From the NCBI GenBank assembly GCA_018692315.1, contig JABHKC010000081.1, positions 1-33,525 on the forward strand: DNA of 33,525 nucleotides. The letters run 5' to 3'. Position 1 is the first letter of the stretch, and every line of letters starts with the position of its first letter. The notes under the pieces were generated by a model. The model saw nothing but the letters and a program-made list of their open reading frames with translations. It was not told the origin of the DNA and searched no databases. Shown piece after piece: positions 1,875 through 21,402 of this stretch. The position numbers and the translations under genes were made by a program. The stretch comes from Bacteroidota bacterium. Its GTDB lineage: Bacteria > Bacteroidota > Bacteroidia > Bacteroidales > JABHKC01.

Positions 1875-3395
1875 ATGGATGACATAAAAACCAAATCCAA
1901 AGTACAGAAAGTAGAGAATAACACAACTAATAATCAGCGGCAGGAAATTGTTAATCATATTACCTTGTACGACACTATTAATGAATTTGGTGCAAGCAGA
2001 ACAATTGAATGTATAGTTATTGATGACGAAACTAAAGAACCAATACCATTTGCAAATGTTACCTTTGCAGATAATGGAATCAATATTTCCGGTTGTATAA
2101 CAGACTTTGATGGAAAATTTACTATATTATCTGTTCCTGAAGTAGATTCTTTAATCATGAAAGTGAGTTATGTTGGTTATAAGACTGAGTCGATAGATAT
2201 TTCTGAGGGATTTCCTTCAGTTATTAGTTTACAGGTGTCAGCAATGCAAATACAAGAGGTTCTCATGGTTAGATATAATGATAGAGATGAAACTATAACA
2301 TCCGAAGAAATCGCCAGAATGCCTGGGCGAGATGCTTCTTCAGTTGCAACAACCGTAGGTGGTGTTTACTCTGAAGATGGTCAAATTGGAAGTATAAGAG
2401 GTTCTCGTACTGAAGGTACTGCCACCTTTGTTGATGGGATAAGATTATTATCTCCTAAGTATGAAACTTTAAATAAATCTAAGTCAACTATAAAAGTTCT
2501 ATCCTGGATGCCACATGCACCATATATGGAAGAACTTAGAAAAGCAAATGATGATGAATTATTAGCAATTTATTACAAACTTAAAGATGAAAACAAAAAT
2601 CGTCCATCATTCTACATTCAAGTTGCAGACTTGTTTTTCGTAAAAGGAAAACATAAACAGGCAGTTAGAATCCTCTCGAATACTATAGAATTAGATTTGG
2701 AAAATCCAGAACTTCTTAAAGTAGTTGCAAGACGTTTGTTGGACGAAAAAGAGTATGAAATGTCAATTAAAATATTTACTGAAATAAAAGATTTACGTCC
2801 TGAAGAGCCACAGTCATACAGAGATTTAGCTTTAGCCTACACTAAAAACAAACAATACCAAAAAGCATTAGATATGCATTTACATATCTTAAATAGAAAA
2901 TGGGGACGATTTGAGGAAATAAAAGAGGTAGTATTTAATGAGTTCAATTGGCTTATTGCTTTGCATGGAAAAGATCTGGATTTATCAGAAGTGAATAAAG
3001 ATTATATAAAATCAATGCCATTGGATATACGTATTTCAATAGACTGGAGTAGCAACAACAATGATATTGATTTGTGGGTAGTAGATCCAAACGGAGAAAA
3101 ATGTTATTATAAAAACAGATTTACTAAGATAGGAGGAAAACTATCAAAAGACTTTACACAAGGCTACGGACCAGAAGAGTTTTCAATAAAAAAAGCTAAG
3201 CGAGGTTTTTATACTATTTATGTAAATTATTATAGCGAATCACGTCAAAGTATCACTGGACCGGTAACTGTTTATGCAGAATTGATCACACATTACGGAA
3301 CAGATAAACAAAAAACTGAAAGAATTGCAATCCAATTAGAGAATGACAGTAGTAAAAAAACAGTCCAAATAGGCCAGTTGGAATTTAATGAATAA
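1875..3395 (+). pseudogene. 3' part of a surface protein (CarboxypepD_reg, plug-like, TPR, DUF2135), 5' end cut by the IS
   Basis: The visible frame codes for 506 residues. It shows a carboxypeptidase-regulatory-like fold (about 45-110, with EPIPFANVTF and VSYVGYKTESIDIS), a TonB-plug-like segment (about 128-192, IGSIRGSRTEGTATFVDGIR), TPR-like helices (about 235-330) and a C-terminal DUF2135/YfaP-like domain (about 385-495, NNNDIDLWVVDPNGEKCYY). In Bacteroidota this set usually follows VIT and von Willebrand A domains and a signal peptide. All of those are missing here, the first ATG is 6 bases past the insertion sequence, and the frame stays open back into the element. I infer that the insertion removed the 5' part and that the ATG is accidental. 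It could still be expressed as a cytoplasmic fragment. The remaining domains look intact, so the insertion may be recent. Confidence 0.75.
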
Positions 3396-9605: not shown

Positions 9606-11861
9606 ATGTCCTTTTTCAGATTACTTTTTTTATTGATTGTTTTTATTGGATATAAAATTACTTATTCGCAACAAATTGCGACAATTTTTCACGACGATTT
9701 TACGGATAATAGAAATGAATGGCTTGAAAAAAATTCGAACCAACATAAAACAAAAGTTACAAATAATACATTCTTCCTTCACAATAAATTAAGAAATGGC
9801 TCTTTGGCTGCTACCAAAGAAATAGAAATGAACCATGAAAACGATTTCATTATCGAAGCCACTATGCGAAGAATAAAAGGATTTGAAAATGATGGTTACG
9901 GACTTACATGGGGCAGGTTCAACAGTGAAAATAGTTTTAGTTTTACTATCAGCGAATCAGGAGGATTCGAAATTGGCAAATGGCAAAACGGTAAATGGCA
10001 AAATATGGTGAAATCGACTCAGTCTGAGCATATTAACACAAAGAACAAGTTTAACCAGATGGCGATTAAAAAAAGTAAAAACCAAATCAGTTTCTATATA
10101 AATCAAAACCTTGTTTCAGAACTTCCGTTCGAGAATTTTTTTGGTTTCGATCTGGGTTTCATTATTTATCACAATATGGTTGTTGAGGTAGAAAATATAC
10201 GAGTTTCAGGAACTTCATATTTTCAAGGATATTCCTATAATAGTAAAAATTCTTTAAGAAAACATAATGAACAAGATATATTGATTAGAAATATTGAATA
10301 TAAAGATTACGATGGAGATACTGTTCTAAAAAGTGTTAACAATGGCGATATATTCTTTGATTTATTTAACAATTCAAAAATTAATTTTAAAGAATTATCT
10401 GTTCTTCTTACTCCTTTAAATTCAGATCAGAATATCGAATACAAGCCTATAACTCAGGTTTTTAATTTGAAACCAGGTTCTACAAAAAAAGTTTCAATAG
10501 ATATATTTGCAAACAAACAATTTCAAGGTGGAAGCAAAACTTTTAGGATAGATGTGATTGAAAAAGACGGTTTCGTTGCGAATCCATTAGAATTTAGTAT
10601 TTCTTCCGAAGCATTTTCGCAACCCGATGTTCGTGTTGAAAAAATAATTATTGATGATACTATTGATGAAAGTGGCAAAACACTGCGATATGGTAACGCA
10701 AATTCGATGATTGATGCAGGTGAAGTAATTGAGGCGGCGATTTTTCTAAAAAACTACGGCGGGAAAGAAAACAATTTTTATGCTAAAATAAATTTAAAAA
10801 CAAGAAGTTACGATATATCCTTCAAAGAACGAGGACAAAGAATGCAGTTAGGAAACTTTGAGCCAAACGAAACCAAAATCATAAAATTTTCATTTTTTAC
10901 AAATTCAAGATTCGGAATAAACGATATTCCTTTTATTATGAATTTATACTACAGTCACAGAATGCACAAAGAAATTGATTTTGGGCTAAAGCATGGAGAG
11001 CTATGGAACAGAAAATATCTAAAATATACTTATAGCGAAGTGATAAATACAGTAAAAAAGCCAACAATAGAAATTGCTGATATTGATACCGGTTACAAAA
11101 ATGCACAAATAAAAAGTGATTTGCTGGTTGTAATAATTGGCTCGGACCAACACTACAAAGAATATCAATCGAATTTTGCGAAAAACGATGCGCAGGTTTT
11201 TTACCAATATGCAAAAACAGTTTTTGGAGTTCCTGAAAAAAATATATTTATGCGACTGAACGAAACAATTTCGGCAGCCGAATTTTTATCCTTATTTTCA
11301 AAAAATGGGTGGATTTCTCAAAAATCTAATAAAAATGAAATGTCCTTGATAATTTATTTTTCTGGTCATGGATACCCAAATATGCAATGGAAAGACGATT
11401 TGCAAATTTTGCAATATTTAAATCCAAATTTCAATAAAGAAACTGGAGAAAGCAAAATATCGAATGAAATTTACAAACTAAGCGAGGCAAAAAATCTAAA
11501 ATCAATAAGTGTAATAGTAGATGCTTGCTATTCAGGAAACAGAGCAACACATAGTATGCAATTATCGGACAATGCAGAAAAGTTTTTAATTGACAGAAAA
11601 AGCGAATTTCCAAACGAAAATATTAGCTACCTATCTTCAGCGCCACTTGACAAATATGGAATTGCTCTCGAACAAAAAAATCATAGTTTTTTAACATATT
11701 TTCTTTTCAAAACTATAAAGTCAAAAAATGCTTTGCCCAATATTTCTATTCAAGATATTTTGCAAGAAATGAAAAAAGATTCAAGCCTTAATAATACTGA
11801 AAAAGAAGCAATTTATGACATATTTTTTATTTCAAAAAATACTAAGAGGCAACTTTTTTAA
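9606..11861 (+). CDS. Secreted caspase-fold (C14) protease with an N-terminal lectin-like domain
   Basis: The protein has 751 residues, a signal peptide (MSFFRLLFLLIVFIGYKITY, cut near SQ22) and three regions. Residues about 27-200 resemble a concanavalin-like (DUF1080/LamG type) domain, with FHDDFTDNRNEWLE and GLTWGRFNSENSFSFTIS. Residues about 340-460 look like a CARDB/Ig-like domain with DAGEVIEAAIFLKNYGGKEN. Residues about 500-700 form a caspase fold with His588 in YFSGHG and Cys641 in VDACYSG, the expected His-Cys dyad. Family C14 enzymes cut after Arg/Lys or Asp; the specificity here is unknown. There is no clear T9SS tail, so the protein may act in the periplasm or on the surface. It stands first in a plus-strand run but the next gene has its own promoter. 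Confidence 0.85.
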   Translation: MSFFRLLFLLIVFIGYKITYSQQIATIFHDDFTDNRNEWLEKNSNQHKTKVTNNTFFLHNKLRNGSLAATKEIEMNHENDFIIEATMRRIKGFENDGYGLTWGRFNSENSFSFTISESGGFEIGKWQNGKWQNMVKSTQSEHINTKNKFNQMAIKKSKNQISFYINQNLVSELPFENFFGFDLGFIIYHNMVVEVENIRVSGTSYFQGYSYNSKNSLRKHNEQDILIRNIEYKDYDGDTVLKSVNNGDIFFDLFNNSKINFKELSVLLTPLNSDQNIEYKPITQVFNLKPGSTKKVSIDIFANKQFQGGSKTFRIDVIEKDGFVANPLEFSISSEAFSQPDVRVEKIIIDDTIDESGKTLRYGNANSMIDAGEVIEAAIFLKNYGGKENNFYAKINLKTRSYDISFKERGQRMQLGNFEPNETKIIKFSFFTNSRFGINDIPFIMNLYYSHRMHKEIDFGLKHGELWNRKYLKYTYSEVINTVKKPTIEIADIDTGYKNAQIKSDLLVVIIGSDQHYKEYQSNFAKNDAQVFYQYAKTVFGVPEKNIFMRLNETISAAEFLSLFSKNGWISQKSNKNEMSLIIYFSGHGYPNMQWKDDLQILQYLNPNFNKETGESKISNEIYKLSEAKNLKSISVIVDACYSGNRATHSMQLSDNAEKFLIDRKSEFPNENISYLSSAPLDKYGIALEQKNHSFLTYFLFKTIKSKNALPNISIQDILQEMKKDSSLNNTEKEAIYDIFFISKNTKRQLF

Positions 11862-18662: not shown

Positions 18663-19511
18663 CTATTTGAATATTTTCAGTCCAAGATGATAAGCTTTTT
18701 GGAATGCCTCCATATTTAATTTATTTTCAATATGGTTTTTATTTAAATATTCAATCAATGAGGATGTTTGCAAATTGGCTACCAACTCTTTACCTGTCAT
18801 TGGGCAGCCACCAAGATTGTGCATAACCGTATCAATAATATTGCATTGGTTTTTCATTGCAGCATCAAGTTTTTCATACCAGCTTTCGTTTGTGGTATGC
18901 AGATGAAAACCAAAATAAATTTCAGGAAACTGGGCATATATTGTTGAATAAACTTCAGCAATTATTTCAGGATTTGCGATATTAGTAATGTCCGACAATG
19001 AAATAATTTTAATTCCTAATTGCCTGAGTTTTTCAATTTGCTGAATTACCAAATCGATATTCCATATGTCTCCGTACGGATTTCCGAACGCCATTGTAAT
19101 ATAAACAATCAAAGTTTTGTTTTTGGAAAGACAAATTTCCTGAAGCTCTGCAACAGTTCTATTAGATTTTTCGATATTTGAATTTATATTCTTCTGCAAA
19201 AAAGTTGGGGATATGGAAGAAGGAAAGCCAAGAAAATCAATGATGTCATACTTACAAGCCTGTATTGCTCCCCGTCCATTTCCAACAATAGCCATCAACT
19301 TGGTTTTTGAATTCGATTTTTTAAGGAGCTGAGTTACCAGATTGGTATCAGCAAGTTGCGGAATTGCCTTAGGCGAAACAAAACTCCCAAAATCAATAAT
19401 ATCGAAACCAACCTCCAATAATGAATTAATATATTTTGCTTTCATTTCTGTAGGAATAAATTCTTTTATTCCTTGCATTGCATCACGAGGCGATTCTATA
19501 ATCTTTATCAT
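18663..19511 (-). CDS. HMG-CoA lyase family enzyme
   Basis: The protein has 282 residues from MIKIIESPRDAMQG; the frame opens at 19577 but the extra 22 residues are not family-like. It is a TIM-barrel lyase that would split 3-hydroxy-3-methylglutaryl-CoA into acetoacetate and acetyl-CoA, as in leucine breakdown. Visible key residues are Arg9-Asp10, FGSFVSPKAIPQLADT, AFGNPYGD, LSDITNIANP, the metal-binding pair His203 and His205 in HLHTT, and Cys236 in NLGGCPMTGKELVAN with Asn246. The motif LSDIT replaces the usual LGDT, and HLH replaces HCH, so it is a divergent member and could act on a related acyl-CoA. No other leucine-pathway gene is near. Confidence 0.85.
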   Translation of the reverse strand: MIKIIESPRDAMQGIKEFIPTEMKAKYINSLLEVGFDIIDFGSFVSPKAIPQLADTNLVTQLLKKSNSKTKLMAIVGNGRGAIQACKYDIIDFLGFPSSISPTFLQKNINSNIEKSNRTVAELQEICLSKNKTLIVYITMAFGNPYGDIWNIDLVIQQIEKLRQLGIKIISLSDITNIANPEIIAEVYSTIYAQFPEIYFGFHLHTTNESWYEKLDAAMKNQCNIIDTVMHNLGGCPMTGKELVANLQTSSLIEYLNKNHIENKLNMEAFQKAYHLGLKIFK

Positions 19512-19603
19512 TTTTCTAAAAAAGTGTAAAAATACCAAATTATATTGATTGAGTTTTATTGTAATTTTTGAATCCAAAAATTTAATTTAATACAAAATTT
19601 GTC

Positions 19604-19611
19604 TATTTTTG
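19604..19611 (+). promoter_or_regulatory. Bacteroidota -7 promoter element for the riboswitch transcript
   Basis: TATTTTTG fits TAnnTTTG and ends just before the predicted cobalamin aptamer, so the leader would begin near 19618. Confidence 0.6.
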
Positions 19612-19620
19612 CAGCCAATG

Positions 19621-19830
19621 GTATAAAAGTTCGAAACGTTGAACTGTAATGAAAAGGGAATCAGGTGAAAATCCTGAACAGTACCCGCTGCTGTAATCTC
19701 ATAAAAGTTTTTGGAACATATAGCCACTGTCAAAAAAAATCCTTGATGGGAAGGCTTTCAAAAACCGAGTAAGTCAGAAGACCTGCCATTAGGCTTTGGA
19801 ATTATCTTTACGATGAAGATCTGATAACAT
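19621..19830 (+). ncRNA. Cobalamin (adenosylcobalamin/B12) riboswitch
   Basis: The core elements of the B12 aptamer are present in order: GGGAATCAGGTGAAAATCCTG with ACAGTACCCGCTGCTGTAA (19656-19696), GCCACTG (19723-19729), GGGAAGGC (19748-19755), CGAGTAAGTCAGAAGACCTG with the B12 box ending at 19787, and a hairpin ATCTTT-ACGATG-AAGAT near 19805 that could serve as the kissing-loop arm. A hairpin AGCTTT...AAAGCT at 19867-19885 may be part of the expression platform. The exact 3' limit is my estimate. Confidence 0.92.
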
Positions 19831-19974
19831 AAGATATTTCTTAAAAAAGCCTAAGTATTATTCAAAAGCTTTCGGGTAAAAAGCTGAGGATATCTCCAAT
19901 TGTATCCTTCCAAAACTCCCGTGGCTTACGAATATTGGTTGTTAATTTTTTATTTAACCAATAATAGTAAGATT

Positions 19975-20694
19975 ATGAAAATCAATTATTTTTTAAAAAG
20001 TTTATTCGCATTAATTTTGATGCTGTCATCGTTTTGTACGATTTCGCAATTTGCTGCTTCCGATGTTGAATTTTGGGTAGGCTCCGGTTCAAATCAAGCA
20101 ATTTTTGTGATAGATTTCAACGATAGCACAAACAACGAAAGTTATGCCTGGGGATTCAGGTTTGATGGGACGAGTACAGGTGAAGAGGCTATAAATAGCA
20201 TTGTTTCTGCCGACAATAATCTTTCGGCAAATATTGTAGGTGGTTTCATCAACGACCTTGCTTACCAATCTCATAGCGGTTTTTACGAAAATCCAAACTA
20301 TTGGAGTACCTGGTCAGGAACCAGTTCTGCAGACTGGACAATGAACATGGGCATGGGGAGCACAATTAACAATAACGACTGGTTTGGCTGTTCTTATACA
20401 GATTTTGATCCTGCAATTGAACCAGGGGAACCTATTGCAGCCCAAAGCTCAACTTCAATTAGCAATGTTGATTTTCAAAATCGTATAGCTTATCCAAATC
20501 CTTGTAGAAGTAATTTTAATATTTCAGAAACTATCGAAAATTTTGAAAAAATTGAAATTTCAAATATTTCTGGAAAAATTGTAAAAACATTCAAGACTAA
20601 AACACTTGATGTTTCAAATTTGAAAAATGGAGTGTACTTCGTAAAAATAATTTCGAAAAATGAAGTAATTGTTACAAAAATTATAAAAAAATAG
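19975..20694 (+). CDS. Riboswitch-controlled T9SS cargo of unknown function
   Basis: I cannot assign a function to this 239-residue protein. The start at MKINYFLKSLFALILMLSSF gives a signal peptide; the frame runs in from 19900, inside the riboswitch leader. The mature N-terminal domain (about 25-150) is rich in Trp, Gly and Asn, with VEFWVGSGSNQAIFVIDFND, ESYAWGFRFDGTSTGEEAIN and SGTSSADWTMNMGMGSTINN. The last 75 residues are a type A T9SS sorting domain (IAYPNPCRSNFNIS ... KNGVYFVKIIS). It is the only gene behind the cobalamin riboswitch and the next gene is convergent. I infer a B12-repressed surface protein, possibly one that captures cobalamin or a precursor. It could also be a substitute for a B12-dependent function. 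Confidence 0.75.
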   Translation: MKINYFLKSLFALILMLSSFCTISQFAASDVEFWVGSGSNQAIFVIDFNDSTNNESYAWGFRFDGTSTGEEAINSIVSADNNLSANIVGGFINDLAYQSHSGFYENPNYWSTWSGTSSADWTMNMGMGSTINNNDWFGCSYTDFDPAIEPGEPIAAQSSTSISNVDFQNRIAYPNPCRSNFNISETIENFEKIEISNISGKIVKTFKTKTLDVSNLKNGVYFVKIISKNEVIVTKIIKK

Positions 20695-20730: not shown

Positions 20731-21402
20731 TCAGTTTTCAATTTCAAACGAATTCCATAGACTATCATTAGATGTTTTAGCACAAATATTTACTTCTTCT
20801 TTTGAAACAGGATGAATAAATGAAATTCTCCGAGCATGCAGATTTATACTACCATCTGGATTTGTTCGAGGAAATCCATATTTAATGTCGCCTCGAATTG
20901 GGCAATTTATTTTTGCAAGTTGAGCCCTGATTTGATGGTGTCTTCCGGTTTTCAATTCTATTTCAAGAAGGAAATAATTTTTAGAAACCCCAATTGTTTG
21001 ATAATATAGAATTGCTAATTTCGACTCTGGAATGTTCTTATCGTATGCAAATGATTTATTTTTTTTGGTATCCCTTTTCAAATAATGAGTTAGCGTTCCA
21101 GACTCAATTTCAGGTTTGTTTTTAACAATTGCCCAATAGTATTTCTTTACTTCATGGTCCTTAAACATTCGATTCAAGCGTGAAAGTGCTTTGCTGGTTT
21201 TTGCAAACAATACAATTCCGCTCACCGGGCGGTCAATTCTATGAACTACTCCAACAAAAACATTTCCTGGTTTGGAATATTTCTTTTTCAAAAATGCTTT
21301 AACATTTTCTGACAAAGGAGTATCGCCGGTTTTATCGCCCTGTACAATTTCCTTTGCCTTTTTGTTAACTACTATTATGTGATTGTCTTCGTATAAAACC
21401 AT
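20731..21402 (-). CDS. RluA-family pseudouridine synthase
   Basis: This 223-residue enzyme should convert uridine to pseudouridine in rRNA or tRNA. The catalytic Asp57 lies in VVHRIDRPVSGIVLFAKT, with KYYWAIV and TGRHHQIRAQL typical of the RluA/RluC/RluD group. There is no N-terminal S4 RNA-binding domain, so it is a single-domain member, and the exact target base cannot be told. It lies 59 bases behind mnmA on the same strand, which gives a possible RNA-modification pair. Confidence 0.92.
   Translation of the reverse strand: MVLYEDNHIIVVNKKAKEIVQGDKTGDTPLSENVKAFLKKKYSKPGNVFVGVVHRIDRPVSGIVLFAKTSKALSRLNRMFKDHEVKKYYWAIVKNKPEIESGTLTHYLKRDTKKNKSFAYDKNIPESKLAILYYQTIGVSKNYFLLEIELKTGRHHQIRAQLAKINCPIRGDIKYGFPRTNPDGSINLHARRISFIHPVSKEEVNICAKTSNDSLWNSFEIEN

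Follow-up and report, generated by a model that had tools for sequence, protein, structure and literature searches.

What does a single small protein, exported by the type IX secretion system (T9SS), do behind a cobalamin riboswitch? The question is raised by a 33,525-nucleotide stretch of DNA from a Bacteroidota bacterium (the whole stretch is referred to below as the window), for which a first-pass annotation had proposed an undescribed cobalamin-capture factor. That proposal gains from the linkage of the gene family to cobalamin riboswitches and to btuB and btuG and from a predicted fold shared with B12-binding beta domains; the binding itself is a prediction. The domain is modeled with the fold of the B12-gripping half of intrinsic factor and its relatives head B12-uptake operons, so the protein probably captures B12. 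We put at roughly 0.8 the probability that it is a cell-surface corrinoid-capture protein, repressed by B12, exported by the T9SS, and built on a transcobalamin-like beta-grasp domain with putative corrinoid binding.

The regulatory element upstream of the gene is well preserved. The RF00174 covariance model matches the window with 103.2 bits (E value, 5.3e-25; gathering score, 31.5) over all of its 189 positions, in agreement with the earlier reading of the aptamer core as complete, and this is the sole RF00174 match in the whole 4.98-Mb genome (99.6% complete). The octamer at the 5' edge of the aptamer (Table 1) is presumably a -7 promoter box of the Bacteroidota type; a similar motif, TAnnTT[TC]G, stands at the same place in 25 of the 27 riboswitches compared (the window and 26 relatives), so the suggestion that the unit has its own -7 element holds. 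A TTG near -33 is present in 6 of these 27 riboswitches, the one in the window not being among them. Within the leader, RNA folding predicts a hairpin at about positions 19933 to 19963, just 5' of the start codon. The fold of positions 19780 to 20000 has a z-score of -2.66 (1 of 200 shuffled sequences is equally stable) and does not tell transcriptional from translational control.

The coding sequence is taken to start at the ATG at position 19975; the mechanically called open reading frame opens at a TTG at position 19900, within the leader. As first described, this is one gene of 239 codons followed by a convergent pseudouridine synthase gene. The C-terminal sorting domain is recognized by both PF18962 (7.1e-15; 55.5 bits against a cut-off of 27) and TIGR04183 (2.4e-14; 53 bits against a cut-off of 23), as had been claimed, and is the only Pfam match of the protein. 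What had been called a Trp/Gly-rich domain turned out to be a defined domain of about 131 residues, which matches no family in Pfam or NCBIfam; scans of 62 relatives gave scattered single-member matches only (9 and 8 families, respectively, with best E values of 0.014 and 0.022). At 28 domain columns conserved in at least 85% of sequences, the window protein has the commonest residue in 26. Trp110 (W88 of alignment A1) is invariant, and several glycines of the domain are conserved (G14, G16, G38, G80, G104, and G116), among which the two strongly conserved glycines of the SLBB superfamily may lie. As for paralogues in the same genome, one of the 50 matches listed is the protein itself and the rest overlap its T9SS tail; a profile of the domain finds the window protein as its sole match there.

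Table 1. Features of the riboswitch-led unit, its flanking genes, and an example of the second T9SS protein found in related operons (positions are those of the window unless a locus is named)
Feature	Position	Strand or orientation	Basis or remark
Cobalamin riboswitch aptamer, full length	19602..19804	+	RF00174 model positions 1-189 of 189
Presumed Bacteroidota-type -7 box, TAnnTTTG, TATTTTTG	19604..19611	+	Read directly; 5' edge of the aptamer
Leader, 170 nt, from aptamer to start codon (expression platform)	19805..19974	+	
Coding sequence with stop codon, 239-aa T9SS-exported protein	19975..20694	+	ORF; relatives in 29 loci
Probable Sec signal peptide, residues 1-25	19975..20049	+	By eye
Predicted transcobalamin-like beta-grasp domain, residues 26-156, one copy	20050..20442	+	Bounds from an iterated HMM
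T9SS type A sorting domain, residues 173-239	20491..20691	+	PF18962, TIGR04183
HMGL-like gene, upstream neighbor	18663-19514	Divergent	
Pseudouridine synthase, downstream neighbor	20731-21402	Convergent	
Partner protein, about 325 aa, example	L104:6198-7190		21 further loci

Close relatives of the protein were collected by a protein-only search of genome contigs that was blind to the riboswitch; it yielded 29 loci, with sequence identities of 38 to 54%. Of these loci, 27 have an RF00174 match upstream of the gene and in the same orientation. The two exceptions are L040, in which the contig start cuts at the match, leaving 28 loci testable, and L038; L021 has a riboswitch truncated at the 5' end. 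The counts of BtuB and BtuG come from tblastn, because lists of longest open reading frames pick wrong frames in GC-rich loci: BtuB was found in 24 loci, BtuG in 22, and either of them in 25. Neither was detected in L017, L036 (which ends near the gene), L038, or L039, so that L038 lacks riboswitch, BtuB, and BtuG alike. Two gene orders are common, namely riboswitch, domain gene, BtuB, and BtuG, and the same order with a gene for a T9SS protein of about 325 aa between the domain gene and BtuB. In Crocinitomix catalasitica, for example, the second gene matches the solved BtuB1 of Bacteroides thetaiotaomicron with an E value of 2.3e-75 and the third matches BtuG-type chains with 3.7e-40. The number of domain copies per family member ranges from one to three, the C. 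catalasitica protein having three.

The first-pass annotation had proposed looking for the domain behind B12 riboswitches or beside btuB/btuG in other genomes, and the counts of 27 and 25 of 29 loci display that recurrence. It had also held that a btuB-type gene following in close relatives, with the arrangement in the window a rearrangement, would speak against its proposal. Such a gene does follow in 24 of the 29, and this weakens the statement that the riboswitch controls a lone protein, taken as a rule; the capture role is made stronger by it, because the protein usually comes first in a btu operon. The lone arrangement in the window is probably derived, an operon having been reduced to one gene, the direction of change being read from the majority of loci rather than from a tree.

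More distant members share the association. A profile of 63 domains (A1), run over 395 genomes of the phylum, matched 8 of them, with full-length matches in the window genome and in genome G265. Seven partial matches cover the first ~60 positions, in frames of about 750 to 800 aa or in a 262-aa lipoprotein, and represent a divergent version of the domain. RF00174 leads six of these seven loci, and the seventh (L059) meets a contig end. With the 262-aa lipoprotein as the query, a search of 393 genomes of the order gave matches in 40, that of the window included. Twenty loci were taken from these 40 genomes (the best ones and then mostly one per genus, the remaining 19 being left out), and in 19 of the 20 an RF00174 match precedes the gene in the same orientation, at a distance of no more than 5 kb; as L106 is the same locus as L019, which the first set already contains, the independent count is 18 of 19. 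The count rests on the full covariance model, since a 15-base core pattern misses some riboswitches (L100 and L109). The exception, L099, has no riboswitch within 20 kb, yet BtuB is encoded there and BtuG is weakly matched. BtuB is present in 16 and BtuG in 14 of the 20 loci, and neither was found in L100, L107, L111, or L112. The 20 genomes hold 60 RF00174 matches, for a chance expectation of about 0.2% per gene, an estimate that overstates significance because the loci are related by descent; common descent voids the formal probability, not the pattern of riboswitch linkage.

Among these distant loci, the protein at L055:9781-12021 (scanned as L054, the product of this gene) has a divergent transcobalamin-like domain followed by a propeller of the DUF5074 (BtuG) type, and by eye the ~750-aa proteins at L058:7854-10133 and L060:7866-10139 resemble this fusion. 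All three long proteins are encoded by later genes of riboswitch-led btu operons. In an alignment of divergent members (A4), 6 of 11 sequences weakly match the NCBIfam model SCO2322_fam (best E value, 6e-6; below the curated cut-off where one is shown), a family that may, to judge from these sequence matches, belong to the transcobalamin-like clade as a further branch.

In the genome of the window, three proteins have B12-binding domains (in frames of 1,227, 723, and 1,126 aa), and CbiC, the sole biosynthesis marker looked for, was not found, which makes it probable that the organism uses B12 but does not synthesize it de novo. BtuB is encoded on contig 47 (L043:4361-6313, plus strand; 1.4e-73 to a solved BtuB) and BtuG on contig 21 (L044:3657-4703, minus strand; 4e-72 to a solved structure), in contigs of 53.7 and 38.1 kb, respectively, with other neighbors. 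No RF00174 match was present in 11 kb around BtuB or in 9 kb around BtuG; thus, the transporter is unlinked from the riboswitch-led protein and apparently is not under a cobalamin riboswitch in this organism.

These data bear on an alternative according to which a btu operon has decayed, leaving its riboswitch and first gene behind, and the product of that gene no longer matters. It could draw on the 24 relatives in which BtuB follows the gene, nothing of a btu operon following in the window, and on the ~325-aa T9SS protein, which is missing from the window genome (the search for it returned matches to the sorting domain only). Against it, the frame, riboswitch, and sorting domain are intact, 26 of the 28 conserved columns are kept, and BtuB and BtuG are still encoded elsewhere in the genome. 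Lone riboswitch-gene units, with two domain copies, occur also in Chryseobacterium jejuense (L039:7746-9125) and in genome G265 (L062:8109-9482), the latter of which has a full riboswitch-led btu operon elsewhere (L055). We regard a decayed remnant as unlikely and retain the reading of the product as a probable capture protein.

The predicted structure points the same way. An AlphaFold2 model of the window domain, computed with its 62 relatives in the input, has a pLDDT of 95.0 and a pTM of 0.90. In VIA-align comparisons, the best match is haptocorrin (Z 12.0; 1.6 Å over 94 residues), followed by intrinsic factor and transcobalamin; the top 14 rows are all B12 carriers (Z 10.5 to 12.0; root mean square deviations of 1.6 to 2.4 Å over 94 to 101 residues). 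In the carriers, the aligned region is the C-terminal beta domain; in the model, it comprises residues 13 to 123. After the carriers come 3u7z (Z 9.9), a putative metal-binding protein that we take to be a DUF4430 protein, and then a small archaeal modifier with a beta-grasp fold (Z 6.7). Foldseek E values are weak (best, 0.0098), and the top 15 rows, among the best 50 of 176 rows, consist of 3u7z and transcobalamins. Sequence identity between the window domain and the animal beta domains is only 7 to 14%; profile searches of PDB sequences with A1 and the wider A4 gave chance matches only, and a viral fold library contained no significant match to the model. The fold itself is predicted with high confidence on the strength of the model, the domain being read as a beta-grasp of the transcobalamin-like clade.

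A finer feature of the model concerns the putative site of binding. DSSP assigns a helix to residues 47 to 57 and strands to residues 61 to 66 and 69 to 75, directly after it. A hairpin following the helix is described as the mark of the transcobalamin-like clade and as making several of the contacts with B12 (PMC1796856), and in the secondary structure of the model the two post-helix strands match that hairpin.

A different ligand has nevertheless to be considered, namely that this beta-grasp, instead of binding B12, binds a glycan or a partner protein and works within the B12 uptake complex as scaffold or adhesin. The wider superfamily is reported to include polysaccharide-export and DNA-receptor domains (PMC1796856), and BtuL and BtuK2, although encoded in cobamide operons of B. 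thetaiotaomicron, are reported to have shown no binding (PMC12751083). The model, by contrast, has the B12-binding beta domains as its nearest folds, at Z 10.5 to 12.0, other beta-grasp rows reaching at most 6.7 with the single exception of 3u7z at 9.9, and its strands directly after the helix match the hairpin with the B12 contacts. A role other than B12 binding therefore appears quite improbable, and the corrinoid-capture reading is carried forward.

The predicted fold leads to DUF4430 (PF14478), a domain that has been placed in the C terminus of vertebrate carriers (PMC4350170). The window protein itself does not match PF14478, nor does any of the 63 domains at E values up to 1; a DUF4430 search of 296 genomes of the phylum gave 13 matches at E values up to 0.1, 1 of them above the cut-off and none in the window genome. 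A bridge is provided by two of the distant loci, L107 and L112, whose genes lie directly behind a riboswitch. Both are found by the family HMM (1.6e-15 and 4e-13, respectively; the best of 500 shuffled sequences reached 0.036), and their excised domains pass PF14478 with 38.7 and 26.5 bits (cut-off, 23.8). As a whole protein, L112 scores 23.1 bits, just below that cut-off; its second domain does not match PF14478, and neither locus encodes BtuB or BtuG within the stretch taken. A true DUF4430 protein (L118) scored no better than shuffled sequences against the family profile; therefore, the bridge is carried by L107, L112, and the fold. Since these excised domains pass PF14478 and the window domain does not, the latter is, as judged from sequence scores, a relative of PF14478 and not a scored member; the whole branch to which it belongs likewise falls short of this Pfam model. 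The L112 protein (L112:8548-10464, minus strand), whose gene follows a cobalamin riboswitch, combines two transcobalamin-like domains, a BtuH-like partner domain, and a sorting domain.

That partner domain is related to the ~325-aa T9SS protein of the second gene order, which, whole or as a domain, was found in 22 of the 57 loci searched (L106 repeating L019). Three such proteins were scanned and had no Pfam match beyond the sorting domain. The model of the partner has a pLDDT of 79.6, with some stretches below 50. Its best matches are BtuH2 (7biz; Z 12.8, Foldseek 5.5e-4) and the H-domain part of BtuG1 (8blw_B; Z 11.3, Foldseek 2.4e-4), with carbohydrate-binding modules at Z 9.8 and below. 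Judging from these models, the operons of the relatives may thus carry two kinds of T9SS-exported B12 binder.

How could a lone beta domain contribute to uptake? At low intracellular cobalamin, the riboswitch would leave the gene on, assuming the usual repression by cobalamin. The product would leave the cytoplasm by Sec, cross the outer membrane through the type IX system, and then be either released or kept on display; cargo with a type A sorting domain is described as attached to the cell surface via anionic lipopolysaccharide (PMC9143113). The beta-grasp domain would then bind a corrinoid and might hand it over to BtuG and BtuB, encoded elsewhere in the genome. By analogy with human transcobalamin, whose alpha and beta domains still bind when separated, with lower affinity (PMC5599065), the lone domain could be a moderate-affinity collector that releases its ligand to the very tight binder BtuG, or it could be a lid on a second binder. 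The fusions to a propeller (L055) and to a BtuH-like partner (L112) favor close cooperation.

It is highly improbable that the lone arrangement is an artefact of a fragmented assembly (248 contigs, the window being one whole contig) and that the true neighbor is a btu operon, as the gene is flanked by coding sequence in the middle of its contig and BtuB and BtuG sit in their own contigs with other neighbors.

The window protein agrees with the animal B12 carriers in being secreted, in its predicted fold, which matches along the entire domain, and in the pair of strands that comes immediately after the helix. Unlike them, it has a T9SS sorting domain and a gene behind a riboswitch; sequence identity is low, and the alpha/alpha-toroid domain, which in the carriers closes over B12, is absent, the beta domain occurring in the family in 1 to 3 tandem copies instead. 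A full carrier of the intrinsic-factor type was considered and rejected, since the 239 aa hold only a signal peptide, one beta-grasp domain, and the sorting domain. The beta domain of human transcobalamin is reported to bind cyanocobalamin by itself and to meet the alpha domain only in the presence of B12 (PMC5599065). B12 binding by transcobalamin-like domains of bacteria was predicted in 2007, from a comparison of sequences and structures; in the members of the clade listed in the available part of that work, from Gram-positive bacteria, planctomycetes, euryarchaea, and animals, Bacteroidetes do not appear, and most known members are said there to carry signal peptides (PMC1796856). In contrast to that clade as described, the carriers of the domain here are T9SS cargo or a lipoprotein, encoded in btuB operons.

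The established surface B12-binding lipoproteins of Bacteroides are BtuG, BtuH, and BtuJ (PMC6143338, PMC8941943, PMC10404256, PMC12751083, PMC13398666). Like the present family, BtuG, BtuH, and BtuJ (DUF4465) are reported to be encoded with btuB in cobalamin-riboswitch loci and to act in surface capture (PMC6143338, PMC8941943, PMC12751083). They are lipoproteins with beta-propeller or jelly-roll-type folds, whereas the window protein is a predicted beta-grasp protein exported via the T9SS. Identity with BtuG was rejected, as there is no DUF5074 match and the model is a beta-grasp and not a seven-bladed beta-propeller; the same applies to BtuJ/DUF4465, as the sorting domain is the sole Pfam match and the model is not a jelly-roll. 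BtuK1 and BtuK2 of B. thetaiotaomicron (BT_1486/BT_1487) are likewise encoded in a cobamide operon with a riboswitch, and BtuK1 is reported to bind B12 (PMC12751083). If a BtuK structure is among the PDB sets searched, it was met neither by the sequence profiles nor among the best 50 of the 176 Foldseek rows; a relationship to the present family is possible.

No description of a T9SS-exported transcobalamin-like protein in btu operons was found in the literature searched, most subscription journals lying outside the search. The family thus adds to the B12 uptake systems of Bacteroidota a domain for which Pfam and NCBIfam have no model and connects this domain with the part of human intrinsic factor and transcobalamin that grips B12. 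Its riboswitch-led btuB operons give strong genetic context to the 2007 prediction of B12 binding (PMC1796856), and a likely B12-capture step is assigned to the type IX secretion system instead of to lipoproteins. A more far-reaching split-carrier reading, in which the domain and a second binder would close on B12 together, seems rather unlikely, although the fusions in L055 and L112 fit it; if true, it would give relatives of the animal B12-carrier domain a part in B12 uptake by Bacteroidota.

Two other genes of the window can be described in passing. A 506-aa protein encoded at positions 1875 to 3395 (plus strand) combines a carboxypeptidase-regulatory-like domain, weak TPR-like matches, and DUF2135, by eye with no apparent signal peptide. 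A 751-aa protein encoded at positions 9606 to 11861 (plus strand) contains a weak caspase-like Peptidase_C14 domain (4.8e-5, just above the cut-off).
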